64,000 bases of DNA from the IMG/VR virus record IMGVR_UViG_3300020411_003715, positions 1-64,000 of that record; one strand, 5' to 3'. Each line of letters starts with the position of its first letter. Position 1 is the stretch's first letter. The notes beneath the pieces are model-generated. The model saw only the letters and a program-made list of their open reading frames with translations, was not told the origin of the DNA and did no database searches. The stretch is from a virus. This document shows, in pieces, positions 16,132 to 56,409 of the stretch. The position numbers were made by a program, and so were the translations under genes.

Positions 16132-16351
16132 TAACTATGGTCACGGTCCCGGCCCTCTTATTAATGGAGATTTTGGCCTTAGGAAGGAAGTCTTTGACTA
16201 TTTGCACAAGTAGTCGTTTATTATCTTGTGATATTGGTGGCCACATTTTTAGAACGTAGGTGTTGTCTTCTGTTGTTTCGTACTCCACAAGATCGTTACC
16301 CACTGCCCTCGATATTGAACCAATTGCTTTCGATATGGTGTCTTTGAGCAT
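16118..16351 (-). CDS. small antisense gene between late genes
   Basis: A 77-aa frame (MLKDTISKAIGSISRAV start; C-terminal KISINKRAGTVTIVIKSR) with a convincing alternation of helix and beta segments. It fills a 218-base gap that would otherwise be empty. Its ATG (16351-16349) overlaps the TerL ATG in opposite orientation, and its end overlaps the preceding plus-strand gene by 14 bases. The ribosome site is weak. A longer version starting at 16504 would run antisense through TerL and is less likely. Function unknown. Confidence 0.5.
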   Translation of the reverse strand: MLKDTISKAIGSISRAVGNDLVEYETTEDNTYVLKMWPPISQDNKRLLVQIVKDFLPKAKISINKRAGTVTIVIKSR

Positions 16352-17990
16352 GATAAACCTAAACGAGCGAATTAGAGATAAAGTGCACTCCCCTGAGGAG
16401 GCAAAGCTTTTTCCGAGTGAGTTCGTTTCCTCGTTTTTTAATATTCCTAATAGCGGTGATTTAAGCAACTTCTCTTTTAAGGGCCGCAGGTATCTTGTGC
16501 CCATTTACGACACGCCCGCACAGAGACTCCTTTTGCAGTGCGGCCGGCAGGTTGAGAAGAGCACAACGCTTGGGAACATCATGCTTACCTACGCAACACT
16601 GAGAAGACACTTCAGGTCCCTCTTTGTTAGTCCCACGCAGCAGCAAACAGAGACTTTCTCTAGAGACCGTATCGCGACACCTATAACGCTTTCGGACACG
16701 CTGAAGGCCTTTACTCGCGGAGAAGGGGTCAAGGATAACGTGCTGTACAAAAAGTTTGTCACTGGGTCAGACATAACTTTGAGGTACGCGTTTCTTCATG
16801 CAGACCGAGTCCGTGGTATCTCCGCAGACATGCTTCTTCTTGACGAGATCCAGGACATCCTGACGGAGACCATCCCTGTTATTGAGGAGGCTTTGTCGCA
16901 CTCCCCTTTTAAGATTCTTCGATACTCAGGGACCCCAAAGAGCCTTGATAATACGATCAGCTACTACTGGAACCAGTACTCAACCCAGAACGAATGGGTC
17001 ATTCCTTGTGAAGGGTGCAATAAGTGGAATGTTATAAGCGAGAAAAACATCGGGCCTAAAGGTCTTATCTGCGATAAATGCGGAAGGCCTATACACGCAG
17101 ACCACCCAAAGGCGCAGTGGGCATCTATGCGGTCGCCCCAATGGCTTAGAAACCCGCCCGTAAACACCCCGTTTGAGGGCTATAGAATACCCCAGCTTAT
17201 CGCTCCTTGGACTGATTGGGGTGACATCCTAGACAAACAAAAACGTTATAATCGTGCACAGTTTTTTAATGAGGTCTTGGGGCTTGGGTACGATTCCGGA
17301 GAGAAGCCAATCAGCAGAGAGGCTCTGATAGATACCTGTATTGATGGGGTCAAAAACACCGTCGAAGACGCGCTAGCCAGGACAAAGAAGAGAAACGTGG
17401 ATGCGTACATGGGTATTGACTGGGGTACCGGGGAGAACGCTTACACCGTTTTGACTATAGGGGCCTATCTTGGCGGCCGGTTCACTTATTTGTACTTTCG
17501 GAGGTTCGAGGGAATTGAGGCCGAGCCTGAGAGGACTATGCAGGAAGTCCGACGCTTGGTAGACCTATTTGGAATCAAAATAATTGGTGTAGACTATGGC
17601 GGAGGCTTTGACCGCAACGATAATCTTATTCGAACCTACGGAATAACACGTGTATCCAGATATCAGTATGTAAATACCCGCAGGATCTACTTCGACAAAA
17701 GCCTTGCACGGTTTATGGTAAATAGGACGGAGGCCTTGATGGCTGTCATAAATGCTATTAATCGAAAGGATACGTTCTCGTTTCCTAACTGGACTAGTTT
17801 CGAAACGCCGTATGGAAGTGACTTGTTGTCCGTATTTACAGAGTACAACGAAGCGAGAAGAACGACTATTATTAGTAAGACCCCGGGGACAACAGATGAT
17901 AGTCTACATGCAATGACTTACTGCTTTTTAGCATCTATGATAAAACATCCAAGGCCTGATATTATTGCGCCAAGGGGCGATAAAGATTAG
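16350..17990 (+). CDS. terL: terminase large subunit
   Basis: DNA-packaging motor ATPase and headful nuclease, about 546 aa. The ATPase half has a Walker A-like CGRQVEKST, adenine/coupling region SPTQQQTETFSRDR, Walker B MLLLDEIQDI and the SGTP coupling motif. A zinc-finger-like insert follows (CEGC ... CDKCGRP). The RNase H-like nuclease has MGIDWGTGENAYT, GVDYGGGFDRND and TDDSLHAMTY acidic motifs. I place the start at 16350 because residues upstream read as the antisense of another good frame. Starts at 16260 or 16335 are alternatives, since no clear SD is present. Genes on both sides are virion-type. Confidence 0.92.
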   Translation: MINLNERIRDKVHSPEEAKLFPSEFVSSFFNIPNSGDLSNFSFKGRRYLVPIYDTPAQRLLLQCGRQVEKSTTLGNIMLTYATLRRHFRSLFVSPTQQQTETFSRDRIATPITLSDTLKAFTRGEGVKDNVLYKKFVTGSDITLRYAFLHADRVRGISADMLLLDEIQDILTETIPVIEEALSHSPFKILRYSGTPKSLDNTISYYWNQYSTQNEWVIPCEGCNKWNVISEKNIGPKGLICDKCGRPIHADHPKAQWASMRSPQWLRNPPVNTPFEGYRIPQLIAPWTDWGDILDKQKRYNRAQFFNEVLGLGYDSGEKPISREALIDTCIDGVKNTVEDALARTKKRNVDAYMGIDWGTGENAYTVLTIGAYLGGRFTYLYFRRFEGIEAEPERTMQEVRRLVDLFGIKIIGVDYGGGFDRNDNLIRTYGITRVSRYQYVNTRRIYFDKSLARFMVNRTEALMAVINAINRKDTFSFPNWTSFETPYGSDLLSVFTEYNEARRTTIISKTPGTTDDSLHAMTYCFLASMIKHPRPDIIAPRGDKD

Positions 17991-40124: not shown

Positions 40125-40306
40125 TAGTTTTTCACGCTGTTAGAGTCAGTCTCGTAGTAAGAAGGCTTAAGCTCTTCCTTTAGGACTTCCCCTCCAAGGG
40201 CCTTGATGACTGCGTCGGTGTATTGTTTGCAGCCGGTCCCCTTAACCCCATTAACTTCAGTTTCTACCGACCCATCCTCATGGATCGTTACTTTGACTTC
40301 CACCAT
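40124..40306 (-). CDS. DUF2997 protein
   Basis: 60 aa with GGAGG seven bases before ATG. VEVKVTIHEDGSVETEVNGV, then KGTGCKQYTDAVIKALG and EELKPSYYE match the DUF2997 pattern: a beta hairpin with the conserved G-x-x-C ... helix ... LG and closing K-P-x-Y-Y. Members of this tiny family are commonly found beside DUF1257, as here. Function unknown. The conserved Cys27 is a possible modification or metal site. Confidence 0.75.
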   Translation of the reverse strand: MVEVKVTIHEDGSVETEVNGVKGTGCKQYTDAVIKALGGEVLKEELKPSYYETDSNSVKN

Positions 40307-41150
40307 TGTAGTACCTCCAGTACTTATTGAATTCGTTTTCGATCTGCTTTGCGGCCTCTAGATACCCAGGCCCTAGCGAAGACCCGTCTGGGCTCTTCAA
40401 ATAAGCGCCCGCTTGGGATAAAGTATTATTCGCTAATAGTGCGCGCATAAGCTCAAAACCTCTATTAAAACCTTCTTGGTTGAACAAGAACCCATAAGCT
40501 CTGTCGCTGGGTGGGCACACAAGAGATCTGTAAATGTTAAACCTTACTTTAAGGTAGGCTAACTTACCGTACTCATTTCGTGTCTGTTCTCTCAAGGTTC
40601 GTATGCGGACCGCACACAGTTTGTTTATGGTTCCTTCAAAAGAGGATCTGGGCTTTGGGACCAAATCATTTACCGCTACCCTTAGTTGATTCACCACTAT
40701 AACTAAGGAGTCTCTTTTTATGGCCTCCTCTCTGAGCAGGCTAAGGCCATGAAAAGCAGCCTTTCTTGATGCGAAGGGGACGAAATCTCCGACCCCTAAC
40801 GCTTTATCGCAAAGAGGCTCTGTTGCAGAAAGCGTATCAATAGCCACTACTCTGAATCCTTCTCTTAGCGCTTGGTACGCGGACTCTATGGCCGACTCCA
40901 TGCTGTCTGGGACTACGGATAGGAGGTTTTTTGGCCCAGCGGTTGTTATGTATCGCCTGTCTGGAAGTCCCTCAGTGTGAATTAGGGCAGTAGGGAGGCC
41001 CCCGAAAGAGGCCTCCCTCATCACACTTAAGCAGAGTGTTGATTTACCACTGGCGTCTTCGCCTATGATTTCACACACCCCGCTAGGTAGACCGCCCAGA
41101 AGGAATTCATCTAGTTGGTAAATACCTGTGCGATGTCGCCCGTTAAACAT
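40278..41150 (-). CDS. RecA/UvsX-like recombinase ATPase
   Basis: 290 aa. GLPSGVCEIIGEDASGKST gives the RecA-type Walker A (residues 30-38), FRVVAIDTLSATEP the Walker B strand, and SLVIVVNQLRVAVND the L2/sensor region. Shorter than bacterial RecA, it lacks a clear C-terminal domain. Likely strand-exchange or DNA-repair recombinase, although a RadA/KaiC-like regulator is possible. It lies between the Ycf46-like ATPase and DUF2997 in one operon, an unusual place for a recombinase. Confidence 0.75.
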   Translation of the reverse strand: MFNGRHRTGIYQLDEFLLGGLPSGVCEIIGEDASGKSTLCLSVMREASFGGLPTALIHTEGLPDRRYITTAGPKNLLSVVPDSMESAIESAYQALREGFRVVAIDTLSATEPLCDKALGVGDFVPFASRKAAFHGLSLLREEAIKRDSLVIVVNQLRVAVNDLVPKPRSSFEGTINKLCAVRIRTLREQTRNEYGKLAYLKVRFNIYRSLVCPPSDRAYGFLFNQEGFNRGFELMRALLANNTLSQAGAYLKSPDGSSLGPGYLEAAKQIENEFNKYWRYYNGGSQSNDP

Positions 41151-41157
41151 TAAGGGT

Positions 41158-42756
41158 TTACTCCGCCTTCTTCAGGTCGCCCCACCCGCCTGCTTTCTTA
41201 TCAGAAACCACTCGGGCAGTGCGCCTTTTGCTCTTGGAAGGACTCTTCTTTTTACTACTGTCCATCTCCTCGTTGGCTCGTAACGCTCGTCCGCTTGCCC
41301 ACTTCCGGAGAGACTCAATCCTCTTCTCCATCGTTACAGACAGCGGGACCGTTCTAGCTGCGGCAGACTCCATGTCCTCGATAGTCAATTCGCGGCCATT
41401 ATCAAAGGCGGCGTATAGACCATCAACGACAACCTGCTCAATCTCTGCGCCAGTAAAGGACTCCGTTGCTGACACAAGACTTTTGAGATCAAAGTTTTGA
41501 GGCTCTCTCCCCATTCGGTTTAGGTGAATCTTAAACACCTCTTCCCGATCGGAAGCATTTGGGAGGTCAACGAAGAATAGCTCGTCAAACCGACCCTTTC
41601 GGAGCATTTCAGGCGGAAGCGCTGAAACATCGTTTGCGGTAGCAACCACAAAAACCTGGGAAGTCTTTTCTGACATCCAGGAGAGAAAGCTACCAAAAAC
41701 ACGCGCAGACGTACCGCTATCATGTGATCCTTGAGCAGAACCAAAGCCCTTCTCGATCTCATCAATCCAAAGAACGCACGGAGAGATTGCTTCAGCAGTC
41801 TTGATGGCTTTTCGAAAATTCGCTTCCGATTGACCAACGTACTGCCCAAATAGAGCCCCAACATCCATACGTAGAACGGGCATATTCCAAGCAGCGCCGA
41901 TACACTTAGCAGTGAGCGACTTCCCTGTGCCCGGGATTCCTACAATCAAGACCCCCTTTGGGTGAGGTAGTCCGAATTTACGGGCATCTTCACTAAAGGC
42001 TTTTCCTCGCTGACCGAGCCAGCTTTTAAGAGTGACGAGCCCCCCAACGTCTTTCATCTCACGATCTACGTCATGGAATTGCAGCACACCGGACTTGCGT
42101 ATGATGTGCTTTTTCTCTTCCATAACAACTCGTGGGTCGAGGGTCTCACACTTAGCCAGAGATTTGGAGAATACGTTCTCTACCTCTCCGAGCGTAAGAC
42201 CGAGGGCTGCACGACAGCCAACACCCACTAATTGATCCTGCTCTTCTTTTGGGACAGCGTCCCCGAAAAAGTCATTCACAATTGGAGAGGTCCATACGCG
42301 AAGCTCATCGGCGCTTGGTAGATCAAAGTCCACAACAGACATAATCTTCTCAAGGCGTGGTGGGATTTTAAGCTCACTATCAATTATTACAATAGTAATA
42401 CCTGGGTTCATCGAAGACGTAAGGTCACGAAGCTTCCTTTGTACCGGATAGCATGGCCCCTCGTTCAACCAGTAACCGAAGTCCTTCAAAAGAAAAACCG
42501 CTGACTGGTCGTGATCCCCGATTTTATCCAGAATCTCTAGGGGTGTCTCGATGTCAGGAAAGTGATCTTTCCCGCAATAGGCACCCTCTGTAAAAGACCA
42601 AGTCCACAGTGCGGAGTTGGCTTCACTAAGTTTGTTCTTGCCCTCAACGATTCTGGACAAGGCTTGCGCAACCCGGTGTTCTTCGTGACTAACCACGTAA
42701 ACCACCGGGTGCGCTGCCCTGATCAGAACGTCGAGTTCTTCGACGCTTTGGTTCAT
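41158..42756 (-). CDS. Ycf46-like AAA+ ATPase
   Basis: 532 aa. The N-terminal ~235 residues match the Ycf46 layout ([50 protein letters not shown]). A classic AAA+ module follows, with Walker A GIPGTGKS (273-280), Walker [10 protein letters not shown] (about 327-334), sensor 1 VVATANDVS and an Arg-finger region [14 protein letters not shown]. The tail is Lys-rich and basic. ATP-driven remodeller with unknown substrate. The start overlaps the ParB-like stop by one base. Occurrence with DUF1257 (Ycf35) and DUF2997 argues that these three act together. Confidence 0.85.
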
Positions 42757-43667
42757 TACTCTCCTACTCGAATGCGACGCTTGCGCTTCACAGTCTTCTT
42801 CTTAGAAGTGCTCGCCTCTTCCACTACAGGCTCCTCTTCGGAGTCGATAATGTTGAGAAGCTCTTCGGTTTCAAGCTCACAGAAGTACCATCGAACAACA
42901 CGATCGATAGCATCTCGATACTCTTTGTCGAGTTCTGTGTCCCGGTTGTTCGCGATATACGTACGAATCTCTTCCATCTCCTTCTTGGACCTGTAAGTCT
43001 TCGCCCGCTTCCGCTGCTTAGTCTCAGGAACCTCGTCCTTACCCATTCCGAGAATCTGCTCCAGGATCTCATCCTGTCCCTTCTCGTTCGGGGTGCCGTC
43101 TTGGTTGACAACCTTGGCCAGCTTTTTGGCCTGGGTCATCGTGATACGGCCATGACGAAGCGCCTCAAAGGCTACCGTGCTCAACCCCTTATAGGTTGAA
43201 CAAAGGACACTCACTTGAGGCTGCGAAATATTAAGCATGCTGGCGACCTTTTCCTGTGTGCCTACACGCTCATTAAGTCGATAAACAGCCTCACACTTAT
43301 CAGCAAAGTTCAACGTCTCGCGCTGAAGGTTCTCACTGATGTTTAGTGCGAGTGCGTCCTCAAGGTTACCATCGTGGACACCACAAGAAATGGTATCGAA
43401 AAACCCTCCGGTGTCACCACCACTGTCCAGACGCGTCTGACGTTCGTCAGCAATTGCCTGCATGCGGCGATAGCCCGCAACAAGGACTACCCGCTCCTCA
43501 CCATTAGCGTCAGTTGTGATGTGAACAATAGGAGGGTTCATCAAACCATCAGACACAATAGAGGCCTGAAGGTCTCTTGTGTCACCGATGTCGGACCGGC
43601 TATTCCTAAAGCCGAGCACATTCTTCTCAATCTTCTCAATAGGAAATGTTCGCTGTTCTAGCTGCAT
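42756..43667 (-). CDS. ParB-like DNA-binding protein
   Basis: 303 aa with GGAG six bases before ATG. ParB N-terminal domain motifs are present: LQASIVSDGLMNPPIV, VLVAGYRRMQAI (GxRR box) and LNISENLQRETLN (ENxxR box). A helix-turn-helix follows (QEKVASMLNISQPQVSVL), then an acidic linker and a basic tail (KKKTVKRKRRIRV). ParB-type proteins load as CTPase clamps or act as repressors. It heads the operon with Ycf46, RecA, DUF2997 and DUF1257. The inverted-repeat sites at 43771-43886, about 100 bases upstream of its start, are natural candidate binding sites. With the nearby E1/JAB/E2/UBL genes it recalls PRTRC cassettes. Confidence 0.8.
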   Translation of the reverse strand: MQLEQRTFPIEKIEKNVLGFRNSRSDIGDTRDLQASIVSDGLMNPPIVHITTDANGEERVVLVAGYRRMQAIADERQTRLDSGGDTGGFFDTISCGVHDGNLEDALALNISENLQRETLNFADKCEAVYRLNERVGTQEKVASMLNISQPQVSVLCSTYKGLSTVAFEALRHGRITMTQAKKLAKVVNQDGTPNEKGQDEILEQILGMGKDEVPETKQRKRAKTYRSKKEMEEIRTYIANNRDTELDKEYRDAIDRVVRWYFCELETEELLNIIDSEEEPVVEEASTSKKKTVKRKRRIRVGE

Positions 43668-43892: not shown

Positions 43893-44969
43893 CTAGTTCT
43901 TAGTCTTCGCTGCAATGTTTCTTCTTCTTCTCTTGGGAGCGCCTTCTGTGGCGACAGCTCCAGAAGTTCCCATATAGGTCTTTAGCGCTGCTGGGTCCCC
44001 TTCAACCTTAACTCCTGAGGAGGTCAGAATGATCTTTAACCCAGTAAGATTTACGACCACGTTATCCCCATGGACGCTGATCTTGCTTAGTGAAGGGAAC
44101 CATTGGCCAAGCTGACCAAGCTCATGACTGAGTGTTCCTATATGCGCTGGTATAGAGAAAGGATCTACTTGCTCAGAGTCTACTCTGAACTTATGAATGG
44201 CTTCCCTCTCAAACCTGGAAAAGTTTACTCTGTTTAGAGCATTGACTGCTGCATTGATTCGATCAGTCTCAGAAGATGCTCTTACGTAGTCAGTATCTCT
44301 TCCAACTTCCATACTCAGCTTATCAAGAAGCTTTGCTATTCCGCCTTGTCTATTTTTGACCTCTGAGATCATTTCTCTAAACCAAGCGAACTCTTTTAGT
44401 ACAGAGTCTAGATCTTCTTGAGTAAGAATCTTCAACTCACTTGTTACACTACAACGCTTCTCTCTGAGAGCTTGTATGTCAGAAATAAGCTTAGCTGAGT
44501 CTGTAACTAAAAGTTCTATCTCAGAAAGTAAGCTCTCCAGATTGACTTCATCTTTTTCAATTATACCCCCATTTGAGATAACTCGGCTAGAAAAGATTTT
44601 GAAGTCAGTCTTACTGATAGAGAAGTCTTGAAGACAAGATCTCATTTTTCTCACTAAGACTTGGGGGATGTTTCTAGCTATGTATGGTCTCAGACTCTTA
44701 AAAGAGTTTAATGAGACTAGGAAAGAAGCAGTGACAGAGTCCATAATTCTGAATGGCATATGTACATGAATCTCTCCTGTATTTGTTTCTTTCCATAAGT
44801 AAACATGACCTTTTTCAACAGGCGTAAGGTCATCGTCGTAAAAGGCTGCCTCTTCTGGATCAGATGGGTCACAGAATAAGTTCTCTGAATATGTAGAGGT
44901 CTTCTTCGTAACCAGCCCCTTTACCAGAATCGGTGGATCAACCCTATCGTTGGTTAGTCGTAGTTCCAC
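43893..44969 (-). CDS. unknown protein flanked by operator clusters
   Basis: 358 aa from GTG 44969, with AGGAG five bases upstream. Residues ~140-215 form a helical, coiled-coil-like region (LLSEIELLVTDSAKLISDI), the C-terminal third is beta-rich (KISVHGDNVVVNLTGLKI) and the tail is basic (KRRRRNIAAKTKN). No family recognised. It lies between two mirror-image sets of GTGACA-N10-TGTCAC sites, so it is probably controlled by, or itself binds, those sites. By position it could correspond to one of the unassigned PRTRC proteins, but I see no sequence evidence for that. Confidence 0.65.
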   Translation of the reverse strand: MELRLTNDRVDPPILVKGLVTKKTSTYSENLFCDPSDPEEAAFYDDDLTPVEKGHVYLWKETNTGEIHVHMPFRIMDSVTASFLVSLNSFKSLRPYIARNIPQVLVRKMRSCLQDFSISKTDFKIFSSRVISNGGIIEKDEVNLESLLSEIELLVTDSAKLISDIQALREKRCSVTSELKILTQEDLDSVLKEFAWFREMISEVKNRQGGIAKLLDKLSMEVGRDTDYVRASSETDRINAAVNALNRVNFSRFEREAIHKFRVDSEQVDPFSIPAHIGTLSHELGQLGQWFPSLSKISVHGDNVVVNLTGLKIILTSSGVKVEGDPAALKTYMGTSGAVATEGAPKRRRRNIAAKTKN

Positions 44970-45163: not shown

Positions 45164-45532
45164 TTAATCGGAACCCGCTGTGAGATAGCTTAGGTCTGGG
45201 AGCCTCATCTCTGGGTCCGTGTCTGTGCGCTGAATCTTTCTTCTCTCCTCACGAACTCGTTTGTCATGAGACATGAGCATGCACTCAGCATCTACTCGGA
45301 TATGTCGAGGGTCTCCGCCCTGGCAAATCCTTACCCGGTCCCCGTCATGTAAGACTATGACCGGATCACCGGACAGCACGTGGGGGAGCTTGACAAAACT
45401 TAGGGCGGACATCGGGTGGGCATACCGCAGGTGTCTTGGGGTGAATTTGTTTGTCGAGAATTTTCCGTCCACGGCGTCAACTGACACCCGCGACCCCTCG
45501 AATAGCCACCGTATTTGTCTTATGTCTATCAC
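45164..45532 (-). CDS. small unknown protein
   Basis: 122 aa from GTG 45532; no clear ribosome site, so the start is uncertain. Beta-rich middle (HVLSGDPVIVLHDGDRVRIC) followed by a charged helical segment (MSHDKRVREERRKIQR). Stop at 45164, just upstream of operator cluster B. No family recognised. Confidence 0.45.
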   Translation of the reverse strand: MIDIRQIRWLFEGSRVSVDAVDGKFSTNKFTPRHLRYAHPMSALSFVKLPHVLSGDPVIVLHDGDRVRICQGGDPRHIRVDAECMLMSHDKRVREERRKIQRTDTDPEMRLPDLSYLTAGSD

Positions 45533-45646: not shown

Positions 45647-46372
45647 CTACTTAGTAGCCGAGACCTTCTTTTTCTTACGGGACCGACGGACCCGCTGAAA
45701 CCGAAGGCCTGCTTCGGACATGAGCTTGACGTGAGCCCACGGAAGAGCGCTAGTAAGCGCAACCCTCTCACTCTCGTCATCCCATTCCCCCTCGACAACC
45801 TTTGCGTAGCTTGGCTGTACGTGCTTGGCCATGAACTCTTTGATGTCCACGGTAAACCGCAAGCCTCGACTAGCCGCAAAGCTGACAAGGTAAGCAGGGA
45901 CTTGGAGAAGAGCCATGAGGTCCTTGTCCTCATTTGTCATCTCCCCAACGAGGACCTTAAGCCCTGTATCCCTTTCGAGAACAGAGATCATCTCCTCATT
46001 CTTCTCAAGCCCAACGAGCATGATCGCCGAGCTTACAAATGCTCGGATAAACTCTGCTCGGGACTTTGCCTTCTCCTCGACAGAGGGCTTCTTGGTGCCT
46101 CGGCCCCATCCACCTTGGCAGATGAAGTTCATTGCACCGCTTCCGTCGAAGTACCCATTGGTCTCAAGCTGGAAGGCGTACTTACAACGCATTCCACTCT
46201 CCGAGACCGGGTTACCGACATAGGAGACGGAACCATCTCCGTTCTCCCGCTTCAGCAACTCGGTTACCGTTTTGTTGTACGTGATCGTGATCACGTCGGG
46301 AGCACGCTTAGGATCAATAAGGCTTTGCATTGGGAGACCAGACGCCCAACTTTTCTTAGTATCAAAACTCAT
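45647..46372 (-). CDS. unknown protein downstream of the E1 gene, basic tail
   Basis: 241 aa with AGGAGG eight bases before ATG and biased codons, suggesting high expression. Central helical region (AEFIRAFVSSAIMLVGLEKNEE), second half VPAYLVSFAASRGLRFTV, and a short strongly basic C-terminus (RSRKKKKVSATK). No family recognised. As the last gene of the UBL-E2-JAB-E1 run it could be a substrate or effector of that system, but this is inference. The Lys-rich tail is a conceivable conjugation site. Confidence 0.6.
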   Translation of the reverse strand: MSFDTKKSWASGLPMQSLIDPKRAPDVITITYNKTVTELLKRENGDGSVSYVGNPVSESGMRCKYAFQLETNGYFDGSGAMNFICQGGWGRGTKKPSVEEKAKSRAEFIRAFVSSAIMLVGLEKNEEMISVLERDTGLKVLVGEMTNEDKDLMALLQVPAYLVSFAASRGLRFTVDIKEFMAKHVQPSYAKVVEGEWDDESERVALTSALPWAHVKLMSEAGLRFQRVRRSRKKKKVSATK

Positions 46373-46406: not shown

Positions 46407-47072
46407 TTAAGCGGTCCGGTTCAACCTCCAGTTTGTAAAGTCAATCTCTACAACCTTGAAGTTGATCGGCTCGCAAATAACACTCTTTGCCACGGCAGAG
46501 CAGATAAGCGAAGCCAGCCCGTATGCGCAGAAAATGGTAGCTTTCTCCGTACACGGAAGTGGCATAGCTTCTTCATCACTGAATAAACTTTTCTCATAGT
46601 TTTCGACAGTTTCGCGATCCCCCTTATCTACAAAGAAAACCTGTCCAAAACGCGCAGCCATTCGACCGTCAATAAAGAATCTTGCTGACGGGCTCATGAG
46701 AAATGATTCGAAGATGGCCTTCCTGGAAGACATGCTGTCCACTGCGGACACTACGTAGGTTTCTTCAAACGTGTGACCCTCTTCGACTCTAGCAAATTCA
46801 GCGATAATTTCAGCGCCAGTCCCTTCGGATAAACGCTTAGCTAAGGCTTCAACTTTCTTATACCCAATTTCTGGTATGAAATAGCCTTGGTTGGCTAGGT
46901 TATGGGACTCTACCGTGTCGTCATCAAAGACCTTGATTCTTCGAACACCCATTTTAGTTAGCGTCTCGACGGTGTGGGAGCCGATAGCCCCAGCACCGAC
47001 AACGCCTACAGTGATGTTATTGATTAGGCCATCAGGAATAATCCCTGATTGCCGAGTAGTATCGATCATCAT
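46407..47072 (-). CDS. E1-like / ThiF family adenylating enzyme
   Basis: 221 aa from ATG 47072, which overlaps the JAB stop (TAATG); two ATGs nearby are alternatives. N-terminal Rossmann nucleotide-binding loop VGVVGAGAIGSHTVETL (G26, G28, G31), then KVFDDDTVESHNLANQGY, the Asp/Asn/Gln signature of ThiF/MoeB/E1 adenylation domains. YVVSAVDSMSSRK matches the conserved Asp strand. Near the end PLPCTEKATIFCAYGL offers C174 and C182 as possible thioester or metal cysteines. It should adenylate the C-terminus of the ubiquitin-like protein encoded three genes upstream in the same operon. Confidence 0.85.
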   Translation of the reverse strand: MMIDTTRQSGIIPDGLINNITVGVVGAGAIGSHTVETLTKMGVRRIKVFDDDTVESHNLANQGYFIPEIGYKKVEALAKRLSEGTGAEIIAEFARVEEGHTFEETYVVSAVDSMSSRKAIFESFLMSPSARFFIDGRMAARFGQVFFVDKGDRETVENYEKSLFSDEEAMPLPCTEKATIFCAYGLASLICSAVAKSVICEPINFKVVEIDFTNWRLNRTA

Positions 47073-48133
47073 TAGCATACCCCCTTCTTCAAAAGCTCTG
47101 GATCGGTCATGTAGCCAAAGGCACTTTCCTCTTCCTCATCATCAAAACCCTCATCGACATCGAACTCTTCGTCCGATTTATCGTCGGGGTTCCCAACGAG
47201 CGTGTAGTTGTGAACCTCTTCAAGCTCCTGCTCCACCTCCTCGGTAGACAGCTCTTTAGCGCACCACTTTCCGAAAAGCTGAACGGCCTCGTTAGAGTCA
47301 ATATCCCCCCCATCATAAGCGTCTTGGAGGTGTACCAACTCATCCGGGAACTTAATGTCCTGGTCGTCGTAGCGATACTCGTACCCCCGGGTAGTTACCT
47401 CTTCTTCCGGAGCCTCTTCCTCTTCAACATCGCTTTCCCACATCCACCGGTTTCCGTGGAGGACACGGCTTCCGTTTGTTACGATTGGGCGAGAAGACCG
47501 ACTCCAGTCGGAGTACCCTGAGTACCAAGACTTATTCTTACCGGCACGCTTCACGGACGTAAGTGTTTCCACAGTCCGGGCAGACCGTGTCACATATTTT
47601 TCCACCATCTCTTCACCCCACCCATCCGGGAGGATGTTGATCTGGTCGACTGACCATGTGCACCTTTCAAAGGTCTGCCTAAACGGCTTAAACATTTCTA
47701 CACGAACATTAAGCTCGCGCTTCTTGTTAGCGATGATGAAGATACCAACGTCACCGAGAAGCTCGTTACCAGCAATAGTCTCAATCCACTGCTCATCTAC
47801 ACCTGACTGGGATACCCCCATATTCACGTGGCTGTGGAAGTGGACAGCCCTCCGCTTCCCAGGGTTCTCCCAGCCCTCATCCTTCAAGGACATAAGCTGG
47901 TCTGTCAGACCATCTGAGTCCATCTCAGTGTACGTTCCTGTACACGATTGAGAGGAGGGTCTGAACTCTGAGATATAGAAGTCCTCCTTAACGCCTGCCT
48001 TTTTCTTGTCTTCGTTGGTAGCCAAAAACCCCATTGCACTAATTTCGATGTCGCACGCATCTACTAAGGCAAACATTTGCTGATACGCACGAGTAGTAAA
48101 CCTAACTGTTGGTTTCGTCGTTGTTTTGGACAT
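47072..48133 (-). CDS. JAB/JAMM metalloprotease (deubiquitinase-like)
   Basis: 353 aa. The N-terminal ~170 residues form a JAB domain with the full JAMM set: Glu30 in DACDIEISAMGF, and His100-x-His102, Ser110 and Asp113 in HFHSHVNMGVSQSGVDEQ. Such enzymes trim ubiquitin-like precursors and remove conjugates. The C-terminal half is acidic and apparently disordered (DKSDEEFDVDEGFDDEEEES). It overlaps E2-like and E1 genes at both ends, so the three are co-translated. The likely substrate is the GG-NAC end of the UBL encoded upstream. Confidence 0.88.
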   Translation of the reverse strand: MSKTTTKPTVRFTTRAYQQMFALVDACDIEISAMGFLATNEDKKKAGVKEDFYISEFRPSSQSCTGTYTEMDSDGLTDQLMSLKDEGWENPGKRRAVHFHSHVNMGVSQSGVDEQWIETIAGNELLGDVGIFIIANKKRELNVRVEMFKPFRQTFERCTWSVDQINILPDGWGEEMVEKYVTRSARTVETLTSVKRAGKNKSWYSGYSDWSRSSRPIVTNGSRVLHGNRWMWESDVEEEEAPEEEVTTRGYEYRYDDQDIKFPDELVHLQDAYDGGDIDSNEAVQLFGKWCAKELSTEEVEQELEEVHNYTLVGNPDDKSDEEFDVDEGFDDEEEESAFGYMTDPELLKKGVC

Positions 48134-49208
48134 TTGCTTCTTCTCCGTAAGTTTGGATTGTCTTTAATGCCTCTTCGGCCATACTTATAAACGGGACCAC
48201 CTCTGCCAGAACACACTGCCCATTCTTAGAGGAAGGGTGACTATTTCGGTGGTAGAGCATGCATTCTGAGTGCGTTAGTCCACACGCAGCCTTTTGCTGC
48301 TCTTCCGATTCCTTCGCACACTCCGGACAATTGAGCTTGAATTCGCTACTATGTCTTGGGCAGCTATGGTGATCCCATAGATTCTGGACACCCAAGTCCC
48401 TAAGCTTAATATAGGGGTCTGCGGGGTTATACGTACGAAGATATTCAGTCATTGTATAAATGACGTTTGCCACATCATAGGATCCCATATGCTCGATGAG
48501 CATACGCTCAACGTTTCCAAGACAGGGGTTACCCTCTGATTGAACGTGTGGATGGGCATACCCACGCACGCTAATATTATCCTCAAAAGGGATAACTTTG
48601 GCCTGGACTCTTCGATATCCGCCCGAGTAGTAAAACAAGACCGACACCTCGAACCTACCGAAAGAGTTAGGGAAGGACTCGGGCTTGAAACGCCTCTTTA
48701 TGTAGATGTCGTTAGTGAACCACTTTAGCGTAGTTCTTTTCTCCGCCTCATCATGACTAAACACAACAGGCTTTGTCCTATCTACATACTCCATAACGGA
48801 GCTGAGCATGAATGCCCTATTTTCTATTGATTGCTCAGTATAAAGCTCTTCGTGACGATTCCCGTAGGCCGCACTTTCATTAAGTTCTCTTTGAAGCTCG
48901 TCGCGAGTTGTTTTTACCTTGTAGAGAACATCTTGGTTGTTCATCAACTTACGTCTAGCGTCTGCCCAAGATTTCTTTCTCTTCTCAAGTCTTGCCCTGG
49001 CCAGATCAACAGACTTAGCTGTTTCCTCTAGAACTCTTGAGCGCTTGTTGAACTTTTCCTCTGCTGCTGAAATCTTGCTTGATAACTTTTTGATCTCTGA
49101 CTCAAGGGCTTGAATCTGTGCCTGATTTCTCTCACCAGAGGTCGCAACTATATTAGAAAGTAATTCTTTAATTTCCTGATCGCCCCGAAGCTCGATTGCG
49201 ATATCCAT
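48102..49208 (-). CDS. E2-like (UBC-fold) conjugating enzyme with coiled-coil and Cys-rich tail
   Basis: 368 aa from ATG 49208 (AGGAGG four bases upstream). Residues ~30-115 form a long coiled coil (IQALESEIKKLSSKISAAEE). Residues ~150-270 read as an E2/RWD-type fold: strands FGRFEVSVLFYYSGGYRRVQAK, the flap His-Pro-His at 219-221 and candidate catalytic Cys229 in EGNPCLGNVERML. The HP(H/N)-x-G-x-x-CL order is the hallmark of E2 active sites, and long helices follow. The C-terminal ~80 residues hold a Cys/His cluster (HHSCPRHSSEF, CPECAKE, CGLTHSEC) likely binding zinc. Would accept the UBL from the E1-like protein. The fold is inferred from motifs. Confidence 0.7.
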   Translation of the reverse strand: MDIAIELRGDQEIKELLSNIVATSGERNQAQIQALESEIKKLSSKISAAEEKFNKRSRVLEETAKSVDLARARLEKRKKSWADARRKLMNNQDVLYKVKTTRDELQRELNESAAYGNRHEELYTEQSIENRAFMLSSVMEYVDRTKPVVFSHDEAEKRTTLKWFTNDIYIKRRFKPESFPNSFGRFEVSVLFYYSGGYRRVQAKVIPFEDNISVRGYAHPHVQSEGNPCLGNVERMLIEHMGSYDVANVIYTMTEYLRTYNPADPYIKLRDLGVQNLWDHHSCPRHSSEFKLNCPECAKESEEQQKAACGLTHSECMLYHRNSHPSSKNGQCVLAEVVPFISMAEEALKTIQTYGEEANVQNNDETNS

Positions 49209-49224
49209 GCTTCCTCCTGGTAAC

Positions 49225-49260
49225 AAAAAAGGGGCGAAGTCAAAAAGACTCCGCCCCTCT
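49225..49260 (-). terminator. intrinsic terminator between UBL and E2-like genes
   Basis: On the minus strand GGGGCGGAGTC-TTTTT-GACTTCGCCCC is followed by TTTTTT. It lies after the UBL stop and before the E2-like ATG, so most transcripts would end after the UBL, with read-through making E2, JAB and E1. Confidence 0.85.
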
Positions 49261-49285
49261 TAGTGGGTCTATGTTTGCTGTGTAT

Positions 49286-49738
49286 TTAGCAGGCGTTGCC
49301 GCCGGCCACTTTGCCCGAGATGAAGATCTCATGCTCACCACTACCAAGCTTTTCGTTGATATTGGTGATCTCTACCGTCTGACCTGGGCCGACGCGCTTC
49401 TTAAAGGTAAAACCATCAACAGCCCAATCAAGGGTTACCATCAGGTCTGCCAATGATGTGTCAGCAGGAACCTGGACGCACCGGTCACTCTTACCGCTTC
49501 GGATGAGAGAGACCACAGCGTTAGTATCGCTGTCTACAGGCGTAGCGACCTGGACGTTCAACTTAGCGGCTTCGGCAGCCTCGATTGCCGCCTTGCTGTC
49601 TGACACCATCTTCTGGAGCGCGGAAAGGCGATCCATATCCTGCTGGCAGAAATCATCGGCCATGGACTTAAGGTGGTCATCTCGCTGAGTAACAGCCTGT
49701 GCAAGCTCTTCTTTGAGTCGTGCTAGATTATCCGACAT
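49286..49738 (-). CDS. ubiquitin-like / ThiS-MoaD-like protein precursor
   Basis: 150 aa from ATG 49738, with GAGGAG seven bases upstream (in-frame ATG 49744 is too close to that site). The N-terminal ~60 residues are a helical coiled-coil extension. The C-terminal ~65 residues have a beta-grasp pattern: DRCVQVPADTSLADLMVTLD, FTFKKRVGPGQTVEI, then HEIFISGKVAGGNAC. The end V-A-G-G (146-147) is the typical terminus of ThiS/MoaD/ubiquitin-type modifiers. The extra N-A-C tail would need removal, which the JAB protease of the same operon could do. Codon use suggests high expression, in line with the terminator directly after the gene. Confidence 0.75.
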   Translation of the reverse strand: MSDNLARLKEELAQAVTQRDDHLKSMADDFCQQDMDRLSALQKMVSDSKAAIEAAEAAKLNVQVATPVDSDTNAVVSLIRSGKSDRCVQVPADTSLADLMVTLDWAVDGFTFKKRVGPGQTVEITNINEKLGSGEHEIFISGKVAGGNAC

Positions 49739-50087
49739 TAACATTCTCCTCTTCTTCCCAGGAATATCCCGGAAAGGTTTCTTCAATCTTTTTCGTTAGT
49801 TCTTCTAGATTTCCTCCCGACCACCAGATTACCGATTTCTGGTCGAAGTCAACGCGCATAGCTCCGCCTTTTGATAGGTCGGGCTCTTCGCTAGCGTTCT
49901 TGTTTTCTGTTGTGGCAGAGGCTGAGAATTCTAGGCATTTAACGCCCCCTGCTACATTTGGTGCTGGACCAAAGTAGGCGGTGACGTACCATCCTTTGAA
50001 TTTTCTATTCTTTACTATCTTTTGTTTGCCGAGGACGGCGAACTGTTCTTCCATCTGATTGAGGTAATCAGAGCTTTGCTTATCCAT
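49728..50087 (-). CDS. small unknown protein at head of the UBL operon
   Basis: 119 aa with GGAG before ATG. Helical N-terminus, then a beta-rich region (KGWYVTAYFGPAPNVAGGVKCLEFS; GGAMRVDFDQKSVIWWSGG) and an acidic end. Overlaps the UBL start by 11 bases, so it is translationally coupled to it. No family recognised. Possibly a partner of the UBL system. Confidence 0.55.
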   Translation of the reverse strand: MDKQSSDYLNQMEEQFAVLGKQKIVKNRKFKGWYVTAYFGPAPNVAGGVKCLEFSASATTENKNASEEPDLSKGGAMRVDFDQKSVIWWSGGNLEELTKKIEETFPGYSWEEEENVNVG

Positions 50088-50139: not shown

Positions 50140-50742
50140 TCAGAGTGACAGTCTATTCTTTGAACGTTCGCGCTTAAGGAACCGTAGGTTTCTTTTGACG
50201 CTTCTGGAGTATCGGGCTGGTCGTCCACACTTTTTACAACGAGCCTCAGGGTTCTCAGCCAGCTTACACTTTTCAAGGCAGCGGGCTTTGACTTTTTCCC
50301 AACTAGGACCACCGTTGTAACAAGCGTATACCTTCTGCTTGCGACACCTCTTATATTTCTTTCGCATCAGCTGCATTATATGCACGCCCGCACGAACACT
50401 GTTTTCGACGGACATCATGTCCTTCTCACAGTCTTTTAAACCAAAGACTTTTTTCAGTCTTTTTCTGTGTATCCTGCAGTTCACCTGCATCAGGCCGTAG
50501 TCCCCAGTGTGACTAATCGCAGTTGGGGTAAGCCTTGACTCAACCAGGGCAATAGCTATGACTTCTAGTGGGTCCACACCCTCAGGGATATGGGGAACCA
50601 TCTGAGCAATAACCTTCATCTGTCGGTCAGAAATCTTTCGCGGGGGCTTCCGCCCACTACCGCTGTAACTCTGTCCGAGCGCAGTGCTCAAAATTGTAAG
50701 TAAGAAAAGGGACGTCAGTGATAGTATTAACTTAGTTTTCAA
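50140..50742 (-). CDS. exported lytic transglycosylase/lysozyme-like protein (SLT family)
   Basis: 200 aa. I choose TTG 50742 because GGAG lies about eight bases upstream and a signal peptide (KTKLILSLTSLFLLTILSTAL) starts there; ATG 50811 would put 23 odd residues before it. The catalytic domain has IAIALVESRLTPTAIS with Glu68, SHTGDYGLMQVN and VYACYNGGPSWEKV, the SLT signature. A basic, Cys-containing tail (CLEKCKLAENPEARCKKC) ends the protein. Would cleave peptidoglycan in the periplasm for lysis or entry. It is the only obvious endolysin in the window. Confidence 0.8.
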   Translation of the reverse strand: MKTKLILSLTSLFLLTILSTALGQSYSGSGRKPPRKISDRQMKVIAQMVPHIPEGVDPLEVIAIALVESRLTPTAISHTGDYGLMQVNCRIHRKRLKKVFGLKDCEKDMMSVENSVRAGVHIMQLMRKKYKRCRKQKVYACYNGGPSWEKVKARCLEKCKLAENPEARCKKCGRPARYSRSVKRNLRFLKRERSKNRLSL

Positions 50743-50939
50743 AATCTTGTCTCCACGCTCGAAATTAAAATTGGACGGCCAACCGGGAGGCGCAGAGATT
50801 ACTCCCCACATCTCCCAGTTGTCCAGCCCTAAGGCCTTGTTTCGGCAGAAGGCTTGTCCTAGCCGGTCCTTGATTGTCTCCTCGGAGATCGAAGTCCCAT
50901 GAATATGCTTTGTCGATGTGTATAGGACCTAATCGGTCA

Positions 50940-53598: not shown

Positions 53599-53675
53599 TG
53601 GCACCCCCTAGTGGACTCGAACCACTGACCCTCGGCTTAGAAGGCCGATGCTCTATCCAGCTGAGCTAAGGGGGC
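53599..53675 (-). tRNA. tRNA-Arg(TCT)
   Basis: Full cloverleaf on the minus strand: acceptor GCCCCCT, D arm AGCTCAGCTGGATAGAGC, anticodon loop CTTCTAA (TCT, reads AGA) and T arm with GGTTCGAGTC. The 3' CCA is encoded. Position 1-72 is a G-U pair. Confidence 0.92.
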
Positions 53676-53681
53676 TAAGTT

Positions 53682-54188
53682 TTATGAAGAGATCGCAGAT
53701 CTCGTTTTTGGGTTAGACAGGTCCAAGAACTTGACTTCGTTACTTAAGATCTTTGGCGTCCAACTTCCGTCAAGCTTCTCACTAAAAAAGCATAATGCAA
53801 CGTCTTTGCCACCTCGGTCCTTAAGCAGGTCAAAGGATCTCAGAAGAGCTGAGTCGTTAGACATGATAACGATTTTTTCGTGACTTGACATCGCCGCCAC
53901 AACTCCAAGCTCAACCGAAAAATTCGGCTTAGTGTTGAAGTCGTAAACGTTTAGCCCAACACCAAGTTCGCCCAGCCTTGTGAGAAACTTTGACTGAGAT
54001 TGGTTTTTGGGGTCAGCAATAGTGAAAGCCTGAATGTCTACTATCGATGTAGACGGATTATCACCGCTCTCAAACAACTCCGAAAAGGCTGTCGTTTTTA
54101 ACCAACCAACCAGCTTTTCGTAGTTTACGGTGATGTTCAGACCCCTTATCGCAAAATATAAAGAGCTGAGGTCGATACATACCAACAT
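53682..54188 (-). CDS. NYN/PIN-like nuclease-domain protein
   Basis: 168 aa with AGGAGG before ATG. Reads as a NYN (LabA-like) RNase fold: MLVCIDLSSLYFAIRG with the first Asp, a middle helix FLTRLGELGVGLNVYDF, SVELGVVAAM and EKIVIMSNDSALLRSFDLL, which supplies the S-x-D-x-x-L motif. NYN proteins cleave structured RNA, often tRNA or mRNA. It sits between two phage tRNA genes, so a role in tRNA processing or in degrading host RNA is plausible but unproven. Confidence 0.65.
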   Translation of the reverse strand: MLVCIDLSSLYFAIRGLNITVNYEKLVGWLKTTAFSELFESGDNPSTSIVDIQAFTIADPKNQSQSKFLTRLGELGVGLNVYDFNTKPNFSVELGVVAAMSSHEKIVIMSNDSALLRSFDLLKDRGGKDVALCFFSEKLDGSWTPKILSNEVKFLDLSNPKTRSAISS

Positions 54189-54229
54189 TAGTTTTTCCTC
54201 CTAGTACGATCAATAAAATTAATAATTTG

Positions 54230-54302
54230 TGAGCCGGGTGGGGTTCGAACCCACGACTTACGGATTAAAAGTCCGCTACTCTGCCAACTGAGTTACCGGC
54301 CC
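54230..54302 (-). tRNA. tRNA-Lys(TTT)
   Basis: Cloverleaf on the minus strand: acceptor GGGCCGG with CCGGCTC, D arm AACTCAGTTGGCAGAGT, anticodon loop CTTTTAA (TTT) and T arm GTGGGTTCGAACCCCAC. CCA is not encoded, unlike the other three tRNAs. Confidence 0.92.
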
Positions 54303-54340
54303 GATAGCGAATGGGGAGCAACAGGCCCCCCCATACGCTT

Positions 54341-54610
54341 TTACCCCGTTGTGAAGTTTATAGCTAGTTGTTGCTGAGGAGTTAACTCAAGCGTATAGGA
54401 CGAGCCGGAGGAAATGAGAGCATAAAGCTCATCTATTTCGAGGTTCGTATCTACTTGAGTATGGTCGCAAAGCGTTATCCTTCGGGCATTCTCGTAGTCC
54501 CTACTGGCATCCACACAAACAACAAAACTCGTTTCTATCAGAATGCTTTCTACGATTGGCTCATTAGCCAACCCCTTTTCGCCTACTATGGCGGGTATCT
54601 TTATCAGCAT
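54341..54610 (-). CDS. small unknown protein
   Basis: 89 aa. N-terminal strand-helix pattern (MLIKIPAIVGEKGLANEPI) and acidic middle; the end is ELTPQQQLAINFTTG. Directly follows the 190-aa gene. No family recognised. Confidence 0.5.
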   Translation of the reverse strand: MLIKIPAIVGEKGLANEPIVESILIETSFVVCVDASRDYENARRITLCDHTQVDTNLEIDELYALISSGSSYTLELTPQQQLAINFTTG

Positions 54611-55183
54611 CTATCCGCCTTCCTCGCTTACGAGTTGGATCACTTTTCCGCCTTCCCCTCTTCCGGCTTCGATCCAACTGTGGATAGCGTTTGCGATTGA
54701 GTTGTACTGGAAACCTCTACCCATCTTCGGCTCGAAGCTTACGTCCAGATCCCGTGCGAGAGCATGGATGACGTCTAGTCCGTAGACAGCCTCCATCTCC
54801 TCAACAACCTTACCGTCTTTCCATATAGATAGTTTTGGATCCCAAGAAGAGATCTCCTCAAAACCCTGCTCGATAAGACTAGAAAAGACACCTTCAATCA
54901 TGTCCTCTATCGAGAAATTATCCAACATCGTCTTCAACGTATCGCCTTCGGCATAGCAGGTTTCTGCATATTCTCGGGCAACACCTTGGGCGACCTCTAG
55001 CGCTCTGTGGTTGCAGGTCTTTTTGCTCTTGTGGATCGACTTTATCTGGTCGACCACCTCTTGGGGCAGACCTACCTCCAAGTAAGTTGACGCCTCGAAC
55101 AGCGTGTGTCCATCACCGACGCCAATGATCTCTTTGATTGTTTTCGTGGGCAGCTTTTTCGCCCAACCCTTTTCGGCAGCCAT
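54611..55183 (-). CDS. unknown protein
   Basis: 190 aa with AAGGAGG five bases before ATG. Helical, with LPTKTIKEIIGVGDGHTLFE and an acidic central part (SIEDMIEGVFSSLIEQGFEE). No family recognised. The 5' end overlaps the preceding zinc-ribbon frame by about 70 bases. Confidence 0.6.
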   Translation of the reverse strand: MAAEKGWAKKLPTKTIKEIIGVGDGHTLFEASTYLEVGLPQEVVDQIKSIHKSKKTCNHRALEVAQGVAREYAETCYAEGDTLKTMLDNFSIEDMIEGVFSSLIEQGFEEISSWDPKLSIWKDGKVVEEMEAVYGLDVIHALARDLDVSFEPKMGRGFQYNSIANAIHSWIEAGRGEGGKVIQLVSEEGG

Positions 55184-55304
55184 AAGGCCCTCCTTCTGAA
55201 GTTATTTCATAATAATATTTGCCGTACGCGTTATGCCAACAGTACGGACAATGAGGTGTATCCAGCAGAAACACCTGTTTACAGTTCGAACATCTTGTTA
55301 CCAA
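55113..55304 (-). CDS. small zinc-ribbon protein (start uncertain)
   Basis: About 63 aa. A zinc ribbon RCSNCKQVFLLDTPHCPYCW (C-x2-C ... C-x2-C) is followed by a Tyr-rich segment and basic tail. TTG 55304 with a weak AGAG site is the best start; a longer upstream frame lacks one. Its last ~70 bases overlap the next gene, so this end may be non-functional. The zinc knuckles argue that at least the first part is real. Confidence 0.45.
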   Translation of the reverse strand: MVTRCSNCKQVFLLDTPHCPYCWHNAYGKYYYEITSEGGPYGCRKGLGEKAAHENNQRDHWRR

Positions 55305-55306
55305 GC

Positions 55307-55435
55307 TTATCTCTTTTGCTTGCAGACGTGGTAACCACACTTTGGGCAGGCCCTTATGGGCACCCCACGCTTTAACTTTGTTCGATACTTCTCGCCACAT
55401 TCGGGGCAACTGATCGACACCACTTTTTTAGCCAT
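55307..55435 (-). CDS. 42-aa zinc-ribbon protein
   Basis: MAKKVVSISCPECGEKYRTK, then KRGVPIRACPKCGYHVCKQK: two C-x2-C knuckles about 18 residues apart, a typical small zinc ribbon. ATG 55435; GGAGGG lies somewhat far (12 bases) upstream. TAA at 55307 directly precedes the second zinc-ribbon frame. Perhaps nucleic-acid binding. Confidence 0.55.
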   Translation of the reverse strand: MAKKVVSISCPECGEKYRTKLKRGVPIRACPKCGYHVCKQKR

Positions 55436-55540
55436 AAGTTGGCGTAACCCTCCATAACCGAAATAAAAAATGAGACATCTGTTTAGCTACTCTCTACGAC
55501 CGTCGAACAGATTTACTGGACAGCGGCGCTCCCCCATGCC

Positions 55541-55660
55541 TCCCTGCGGGTGCTCACGGAAAGAGGTAGTGCTGGTGGATTTTCCCAAATGCCGCCACCG
55601 AACAGCTTTTGGGGCTGCCCCGAAAGGGGTCGCGATAGCGGGGCGCGAGCACTATGTCTT
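55541..55660. ncRNA. candidate structured RNA near the tRNA cluster
   Basis: A 300-base stretch (55440-55740) lacks a convincing gene. Within it GTGCTC (550-555) can pair with GAGCAC (647-652). This encloses GGTGG...CCACC and CCCC-GAAA-GGGG (about 55617-55628), the last a GNRA tetraloop hairpin on the plus strand. The nested helices suggest a folded RNA. Strand and family are unknown; tmRNA and RNase P signatures were not recognised. Confidence 0.35.
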
Positions 55661-55741
55661 TCCGGAATCTGGTAGATCATAGGGAGAGTATACGTCAGTA
55701 AATCAATCTTGTGGTAGCAGTTAATATACGCGCTTAAAATT

Positions 55742-55774
55742 ATTCCCCCAGAGCCCTTAAAAGGGGTGGGGGAA
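55742..55774 (-). terminator. terminator downstream of CAT-anticodon tRNA
   Basis: ATTCCCCCA ... TGGGGGAAT with an inner CCCTT/AAGGGG stem. On the minus strand it is followed by AATTTT and lies 11 bases beyond the tRNA 3' end. Confidence 0.65.
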
Positions 55775-55784
55775 TTGATTGTAT

Positions 55785-55861
55785 TGGTGGACCCTCTCGG
55801 ACTTGAACCGAGGACCTACCGGTTATGAGCCGGGGGCTCTGACCAACTGAGCTAAGGGTCC
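55785..55861 (-). tRNA. tRNA with CAT anticodon (Ile2 or elongator Met)
   Basis: Minus-strand cloverleaf: acceptor GGACCCT, D arm AGCTCAGTTGGTCAGAGC, anticodon loop CTCATAA, T arm TCGGTTCAAGTCCGA and encoded CCA. The body resembles bacterial tRNA-Ile2 (lysidine-modified, reads AUA) at least as much as elongator Met. Identity needs determinant analysis. Confidence 0.85.
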
Positions 55862-55871
55862 GATAAGTGGG

Positions 55872-56279
55872 TTATATGAAATCCAATCCTGATTTGTAGA
55901 ACCTCAGGATGGAAATGTTTGGGGCGTAGGGTCCGCCCCTAAGGCGGTGGTCCTTAAACTTGAAGCGCTGCCAGCGTGCGTATCGGTCACCCAAACGGTT
56001 TGCTCTGGCGTCCAGAATGTCTGAGGACACCTTAATGGCGTGCCTTGATTCCAAGTAGGCAACAATCGCTTCCTGGTGCTCCCTAAGCGCTTGCATACAG
56101 ACTCTGCTTACGATTCCCTGGGCAGAATAGTAAAGATCGGAAAGCTCCGATTCTTCTGGCATGTAGTTCCCGTCGAACTCCAGAACAATGTCTTTGTTAA
56201 CGCTGACCTCTAGCTTCACAGGCATAGCGGTGTCTTCGCTGCACCCAATCTGATTCTCCAGACTCAGTTCTTCTTTCAT
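55872..56279 (-). CDS. unknown protein between tRNA genes
   Basis: 135 aa. Acidic N-terminus, then VKLEVSVNKDIVLEFDGNYM, a helical middle and a basic end (YARWQRFKFKDHRLRGG). No family recognised. It lies between tRNA-Leu and the CAT tRNA and is probably co-transcribed with them. Confidence 0.55.
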   Translation of the reverse strand: MKEELSLENQIGCSEDTAMPVKLEVSVNKDIVLEFDGNYMPEESELSDLYYSAQGIVSRVCMQALREHQEAIVAYLESRHAIKVSSDILDARANRLGDRYARWQRFKFKDHRLRGGPYAPNISILRFYKSGLDFI

Positions 56280-56322
56280 GGTCTTGCCATAAATTCCTCT
56301 CGACAGTTGTCAAGAGAGCAGG

Positions 56323-56409
56323 TGGTGGGGCTGGAGGGACTCGAACCCTCAATCCCAAGTGGGCGACAGATTTTAAGTCTGTTGCGTATACCAGTTCCGC
56401 CACAGCCCC
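56323..56409 (-). tRNA. tRNA-Leu(TAA)
   Basis: Minus-strand class II tRNA with a long variable arm: acceptor GGGGCTG, D arm GTGGCGGAACTGGTATACGC, anticodon loop CTTAAAA (TAA, reads UUA), T arm GAGGGTTCGAGTCCCTC and encoded CCA. Confidence 0.92.

Follow-up and report, generated by a model that had tools for sequence, protein, structure and literature searches.

A predicted ubiquitin-like protein conjugation cassette in a tailed phage, with gene neighbours of DNA replication and recombination

The analysed stretch of DNA (hereafter the window) comprises the first 64 kb (positions 1 to 64,000) of the IMG/VR viral contig IMGVR_UViG_3300020411_003715, which is 180,106 bp long in all, and carries a predicted cassette for the conjugation of a ubiquitin-like protein (UBL) at 46407-50087 on the minus strand. 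The contig belongs to a tailed phage, as indicated by a terminase large subunit gene at 16260-17990 (phrog_675, 4e-66), a head maturation protease and a phage helicase. The cassette consists of five packed genes with short overlaps or gaps. In order of transcription, they encode a small unknown protein of 119 amino acids (aa) (49728-50087), the UBL (49738 to 49286, 150 aa), an E2-like conjugating enzyme (49208 to 48102, 368 aa), a JAMM/MPN+ isopeptidase (47072-48133, 353 aa) and an E1-like activating enzyme of the ThiF family (46407-47078, 223 aa); the start sites of the UBL and E2 genes were set by Shine-Dalgarno sequences. The genes and their order agree with the original prediction made from the sequence of this locus, which had described a complete UBL conjugation cassette carried by a phage. 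There is an 11-nt overlap between the first gene and the start of the UBL gene. The product of the first gene, which shares 33-42% identity with its counterparts in the close relatives checked, had no family match in the family-library scans. Among the cassette proteins, the family libraries recognised E1 alone, and the UBL, E2 and JAMM proteins were recognised via their relatives. No further cassette genes were found in the remainder of the 180,106-bp contig (loci L003-L008).

The UBL gene most likely starts at the ATG at 49738, which has a good Shine-Dalgarno sequence, and its product combines an N-terminal coiled coil with a C-terminal beta-grasp domain. The AlphaFold2 model, built from 28 sequences, had a pLDDT of 84 and consisted of a helix plus the beta-grasp domain; its best fold matches were ubiquitin-like/beta-grasp proteins with a probability of 1.0. 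The profile search against the PDB returned SAMP2 (2e-5) and MoaD (0.03). The beta-grasp nature of the C-terminal domain, on which the original prediction depended, was thus borne out by structure prediction and fold search and, together with the C-terminal GG, places the protein among the putative ubiquitin-like modifiers. The V-A-G-G end proposed earlier is present but not terminal, as three residues (NAC) follow it. The UBLs of many phages have this GG in common, with a tail of 0-4 residues that varies between them (NAC, I, RQ, F, R, NK, KI, SSC or none), and one close relative (L183) has a longer tail past the GG. A constant GG with a variable tail is the pattern expected of a precursor that would be processed by its own JAMM protease, encoded next door.

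With the most likely start of the E2-like gene at the ATG at 49208, the catalytic-type cysteine is numbered Cys229. The His-Pro-His and Cys229 named in the original prediction were both found, as H219-P-H221 within the motif HPHVxxxGxxC229. The motif common to the E2 relatives was HPH[VIL]xxxGxxC[WL]G[ND], with the canonical HPN in one of them (L220). The protein contains a coiled coil at approximately residues 10-122, a UBC-like core and a Cys/His-rich C-terminal extension. When the core profile was compared with the PDB, almost all of the top 60 sequences were UBC enzymes, with the HPN and the catalytic Cys in register; the best E-value was 0.011 and no match was strongly significant taken singly, so that the predicted UBC assignment draws on how consistent the list is as a whole. 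The AlphaFold2 model (17 sequences) showed a long N-terminal helix and a core of a helix, four strands, a catalytic loop and helices, with core pLDDT values mostly of about 87-96. In Foldseek, the top match was Cap2, a bacterial E1-E2 protein (probability 0.93), with UbcH5B further down the list (0.57), and the search of a viral structure library returned two unnamed proteins at probability 1.0, as well as a giant-virus E2. Profile and AlphaFold2 model thus agree on a UBC fold with a catalytic Cys after an HPN-like motif, the hallmark of the UBC/E2 superfamily, and the UBC core on which the earlier interpretation relied was upheld by both. The C-terminal extension (window 48102-48390, CGLTxSECMxxHR...C) is partly conserved in the close relatives, was modelled with low AlphaFold2 confidence and is perhaps a zinc site or a built-in E3-like element.

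The JAMM protein carries the complete peptidase signature E...HxH(x7)SxxD in the form of E30, H100-x-H102, S110 and D113. These residues, listed in the original prediction, were invariant in 20 aligned phage homologues, 16 of which are matched by Prok-JAB, and the profile retrieved RPN11 (5e-14) and CSN5 (2e-8) from the PDB. The divergence of the aligned JAMM sequences precluded a pattern scan. E1 matched Pfam ThiF (1e-19), and its profile retrieved UBA5 first (8e-17), followed by ThiF, Uba1, UBA3, MoeB and Cap2. The glycine-rich loop G28-x-G30-xx-G33 noted earlier, as well as D52, K75 and D114, occurred in essentially all of the 177 aligned matches. An additional cysteine, C176, was present in 158 of the 161 matches ungapped at this position; it sits in a P-C-T context (C176-T177) that we take to resemble the catalytic-cysteine motif of conjugating E1s. 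E1 is under strong purifying selection, with a ratio of non-synonymous to synonymous substitution rates (dN/dS) of 0.06-0.08 where estimable, many dS values being saturated. A second E1-like gene was observed in another phage contig (L020, 19138-19866), approximately 9 kb from the cassette of that phage.

By profile, the UBL is nearest to SAMP2 of the archaeal SAMP/UbaA/JAMM1 system, and the JAMM protein is nearest to RPN11. SAMPs serve both sulfur carriage and protein tagging, and a ThiF-type E1 accompanied by a SAMP2/MoaD-like UBL might likewise belong to a sulfur carrier or cofactor pathway with a ThiS/MoaD-like thiocarboxylate, instead of protein tagging. We regard this as highly improbable, since the cassette includes a dedicated E2-like protein with a UBC-type active site and the E1 has the P-C-T cysteine; moreover, no sulfurtransferase, thiazole or molybdopterin gene was seen beside the cassette. 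Archaeal SAMP conjugation needs no dedicated E2 (PMC11354881).

Searches of phages and viral contigs with E2 or JAMM as single proteins yielded almost no matches, and E1 alignments were therefore used for scanning. The first IMG/VR scan, with an alignment of E1 proteins from the window phage, a human-gut phage and crAss-like phages, gave 80 loci, and the second, with closer E1s, gave another 80 that partly overlapped the first. The resulting 139 distinct viral loci contain E1 by construction, and 99 of them have more than 4.5 kb of sequence upstream of E1. Within these 99 loci, a JAMM gene was located nearby in 95, a profile-recognised E2 in 61 (42 of which have the HPx...CxG motif) and a strict GG-tailed UBL (GG plus 0-4 residues) in 41. 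Where no E2 was recognised, a gene of 300-600 aa nevertheless occupied the E2 position in many loci. Some loci (L027, L029, L213, L225, L239 and L252) had the variant order E2-E1-JAMM; the motifs there were GPHI or HPHI. Apart from the cassettes with an HPH-type E2, another large group was observed in phages (several loci within L032-L085), in which the UBL ends in N-K-[TS]-G-G and a divergent gene of 430-600 aa with no clear HxH...C occupies the E2 position.

Six loci (L012, L013, L016, L177, L178 and L183) were close relatives of the window cassette, with E1 proteins 59-77% identical to that of the window. In all six, the order of UBL, E2, JAMM, two unknowns, ParB and AAA+ was kept wherever the contig reached, at only about 35-58% amino-acid identity for E2, JAMM and UBL. 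The order retained at such low identity, and the recovery of the expected superfamilies by the profiles, confirm at the level of sequence comparison that the cassette is more than a chance arrangement. Among the matches listed for cellular genomes, an HPH-type E2, JAMM and E1 were found together on a few contigs of metagenome-assembled genomes (MAGs; L099, L101, L102, L105, L106 and L110). These MAGs were mostly Myxococcales, one of them with two copies, and the contigs may represent prophages, mobile elements or misbinned phages.

The cultured phage crAss001 carries a comparable locus (L010, 2307-6717), in which gp79 is a UBL candidate identified by eye, gp78 contains HSH...PC, gp77 is a JAMM protein and gp76 is an E1. 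The genes bear no annotation beyond hypothetical, metalloprotease and thiamine biosynthesis; gp79-gp76 probably form a UBL-E2-JAMM-E1 operon. As in the window, the set is phage-borne and lies among replication genes, with an E2-position gene containing HxH...C followed by JAMM and E1 in the same order. It differs from the window in the HSH with a longer loop (versus HPH) and in its candidate UBL, which is extended at the C-terminus and lacks an evident GG. The E1s of crAss-like, Flavobacterium and Xanthomonas phages are approximately 28-33% identical to the window E1. The rarity of a phage-borne set, implied by the original prediction, did not hold, given the similar cassettes in about 100 viral contigs and in crAss001. 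A search confined to open-access full texts turned up no paper that describes E1-E2-JAMM-UBL cassettes encoded by phages, and we do not claim priority.

The nearest known system in gene order and context was PRTRC, the plasmid cassettes of which (type 6d of Iyer et al. 2006) comprise ParB, E, C/UBL, F, B/E2, A/JAB and ThiF. The two share the E2-JAB-E1 order, a nearby ParB, a mobile replicon and a similar P-Y/H...G-x-x-C-x-G motif around the E2 cysteine. In contrast, the window UBL has a coiled coil and ends in GG plus a tail, whereas PRTRC-C ends in GAKG; PRTRC-B has no His before the Cys and a conserved His after it (PMC1779556), unlike the window E2 and most of its relatives, in which HPH precedes the Cys. 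PRTRC E and F are absent from the window, where AAA+ and RecA-like genes are the neighbours. The window E1 scored 61 bits (9e-17) against PRTRC_ThiF (TIGR03736), well under the cut-off of 144.75, and ParB scored 27 bits against TIGR03734 (cut-off 278.6), with a better score for generic ParB. The other cassette proteins had no NCBIfam match to PRTRC A, B, C, E or F, and equivalents of A, B and C could be recognised solely through profile or fold. Comparing the profiles of the E2 core and PRTRC-B gave no more than a short motif match of low probability from thin alignments, as did that of the window-type UBL with the crAss candidate UBL, and homology is not claimed for either pair. Affiliation with canonical PRTRC, one of the bacterial cassette types named in the original prediction, was rejected because of the UBL tail, the E2 active site, the accessory genes and the scores below the family cut-offs.

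Affiliation with Bil, also named there, was rejected as well. Bil is a bacterial anti-phage defence system with a tandem UBL, a CEHH-motif E2 and a two-domain E1 (PMC11354881). The window cassette resembles it in having UBL, E2, JAB and E1 in one operon. However, BilA contains two UBL domains, and the window UBL one beta-grasp plus a coiled coil; the window E2 has HPHVxxxGxxC before and up to the cysteine, with no CEHH spacing; and BilD combines an inactive and an active adenylation domain, whereas the window E1 is a minimal, single ThiF domain of 223 aa. PADLOC gave no convincing match for the UBL, the E2 core or JAMM, and only generic matches for E1. Phages are known to carry defence genes, and the same four functions as in Bil might serve as a phage-carried weapon that tags the virions of rival phages. 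The architectures of E1, E2 and UBL, the PADLOC result and the replication-gene context speak against such a role, which we consider improbable. The window also differs from CBASS, in which Cap2 (an E2-E1 fusion) and Cap3 accompany a nucleotidyltransferase: E1 and E2 are encoded by separate genes, and no nucleotidyltransferase match was obtained for the ten window proteins scanned against family libraries. On these sequence-level comparisons, the cassette reads as a phage variant of UBL conjugation that is a member of neither Bil nor PRTRC.

Tail operons of lambdoid phages encode a UBL (TAPI) and a JAB/NlpC protein (TAPK), with no E1 or E2 (PMC1779556). By analogy with the role suggested for the lambda pair, the cassette could modify the phage's own virion or tail. 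We consider this reading improbable, as the window has both E1 and E2 and the cassette is not beside the head and packaging genes, which lie at 16-23 kb on the opposite strand; it is accompanied by recombination genes.

Downstream of the cassette, all on the minus strand, we located genes for a conserved unknown protein (45647-46372, 241 aa), 34 nt past E1 and found in the same place in four close relatives at 45-55% identity; an unknown protein (45164-45532, 122 aa) not found in the relatives, the membership of which in the cluster is uncertain; a conserved unknown protein with a coiled coil (43893-44969, 358 aa), in the same place in the relatives at 38-59% identity; a ParB-like protein (42756-43667, 303 aa; TIGR00180 1e-10 and TIGR03734 PRTRC_parB 1.5e-6, both below the cut-offs); an AAA+ ATPase (41158-42756, 532 aa; AAA 1e-30, phrog_8638 1e-137); and a RecA-like recombinase (40278-41150, 290 aa; Pfam RecA 9e-13). 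The 241-aa protein had no PDB match, and the 358-aa protein had only weak coiled-coil matches. In the window clade, the cassette is followed by a pair of conserved unknowns and then by ParB, AAA+ and a RecA-like gene; ParB was linked to it in 6/6 close relatives, and the RecA-like gene was also kept with it in close relatives. In the first-scan loci, a Sak4-like recombinase gene directly followed E1 in 39/80, and a DnaB/primase-like gene was nearby in 48/80. Further neighbours in other phages included D5 primase, SbcC/Rad50, SNF2, DnaG and ParB. CrAss-like and Flavobacterium phages had primase and/or uracil-DNA glycosylase genes near the cassette, and ligase and topoisomerase genes were close to the ThiF locus of a Xanthomonas phage.

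The components, folds and active-site residues obtained from sequence, structure prediction and comparison make it very likely that the conjugation reactions themselves take place. JAMM would trim the UBL tail (VAGG|NAC), exposing Gly-Gly; E1 would adenylate the UBL C-terminus and then hold the UBL as a thioester, probably on C176. The UBL would pass from E1 to Cys229 of E2, which would attach it to amines of target proteins, and JAMM would also take it off again. The targets are deduced from the gene neighbourhood: because replication and recombination genes adjoin the cassettes in diverse phages, the most likely candidates would be the phage's own ParB, RecA-like and AAA+ proteins and their partners, or host DNA-metabolism proteins recruited there. 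Our tentative overall proposal, targets included, is reversible, phage-encoded UBL conjugation onto phage DNA replication/recombination proteins, to which we assign a little less than an even chance of being correct. The original prediction had the phage modifying its own or host proteins, or counteracting host systems; virion modification and counter-defence are possible, and the gene context points instead to DNA replication and recombination.

Several observations weigh against this proposal. Replication genes abound in early phage regions, and many of the loci share ancestry, so that the co-location is only suggestive. No E3 was identified, and no single E2 sequence reached an E2 family cut-off. 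The fold match of the E2 model was globally weak, with low TM-scores (at a best PDB probability of 0.93), which we attribute to the coiled coil. Mycobacterial, rhizobial and agrobacterial phages that lack a cassette within 5 kb have the AAA+ (phrog_8638) as well.

E2 and JAMM have diverged more rapidly than the genes around them: in the L012/L177 pair, they are 50% and 55% identical, versus 89% for E1, 87% for UBL, 84% for ParB and 87% for AAA. Such divergence would also suit host-facing roles, as it is expected of substrate-facing enzymes under changing selection, and the phage UBL might accordingly be attached to proteins of the host, such as defence proteins, nucleases or RNA polymerase, to disable them. 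This takeover or counter-defence reading appears unlikely, if worth keeping in view. In the relatives examined, the cassette stays in place with the replication genes and not in a variable accessory island, and it is the coiled coil and the N-terminus of E2 that have diverged most, not the active site.

Studies of ubiquitin-like conjugation in bacteria have dealt with it as a defence against phages. In the present case, it is phages that own the enzymes; the sets are numerous and adjoin replication genes, and one is found in the cultured crAss001. Since similar sets exist in many other phages, the tagging of proteins is probably one of the regular tools of phages, in addition to a means of bacterial defence. 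Should the conjugation be real, phages would have regulated, reversible protein tagging at their disposal, and PRTRC may play the same role on plasmids. A broader and rather doubtful extension, linked through PRTRC to plasmids, would be a replicon-dedicated UBL system widespread in phages, one that tags proteins of recombination, partition and replication and untags them as infection proceeds, the neighbouring Cdc48-like AAA+ of the window clade extracting tagged proteins from DNA. If true, replicon-dedicated tagging with an AAA+ extractor would parallel eukaryotic ubiquitin/SUMO and p97 in DNA repair.

The AAA+ gene was also considered as an obligate part of the cassette, and this was rejected in view of the phages that carry it without one. 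In one of the AAA+ (phrog_8638) phages, the mycobacteriophage Catdawg, a ParB-like gene lies near the AAA+ gene, with no UBL cassette. Directly upstream of the window cassette, at 50140-50811, we observed a gene for a protein with an SLT transglycosylase domain (Pfam 3e-16) and a likely signal peptide, which is kept in the close relatives. Four tRNA genes (Arg, Lys, Met and Leu) are located on the minus strand at 53599-56409.

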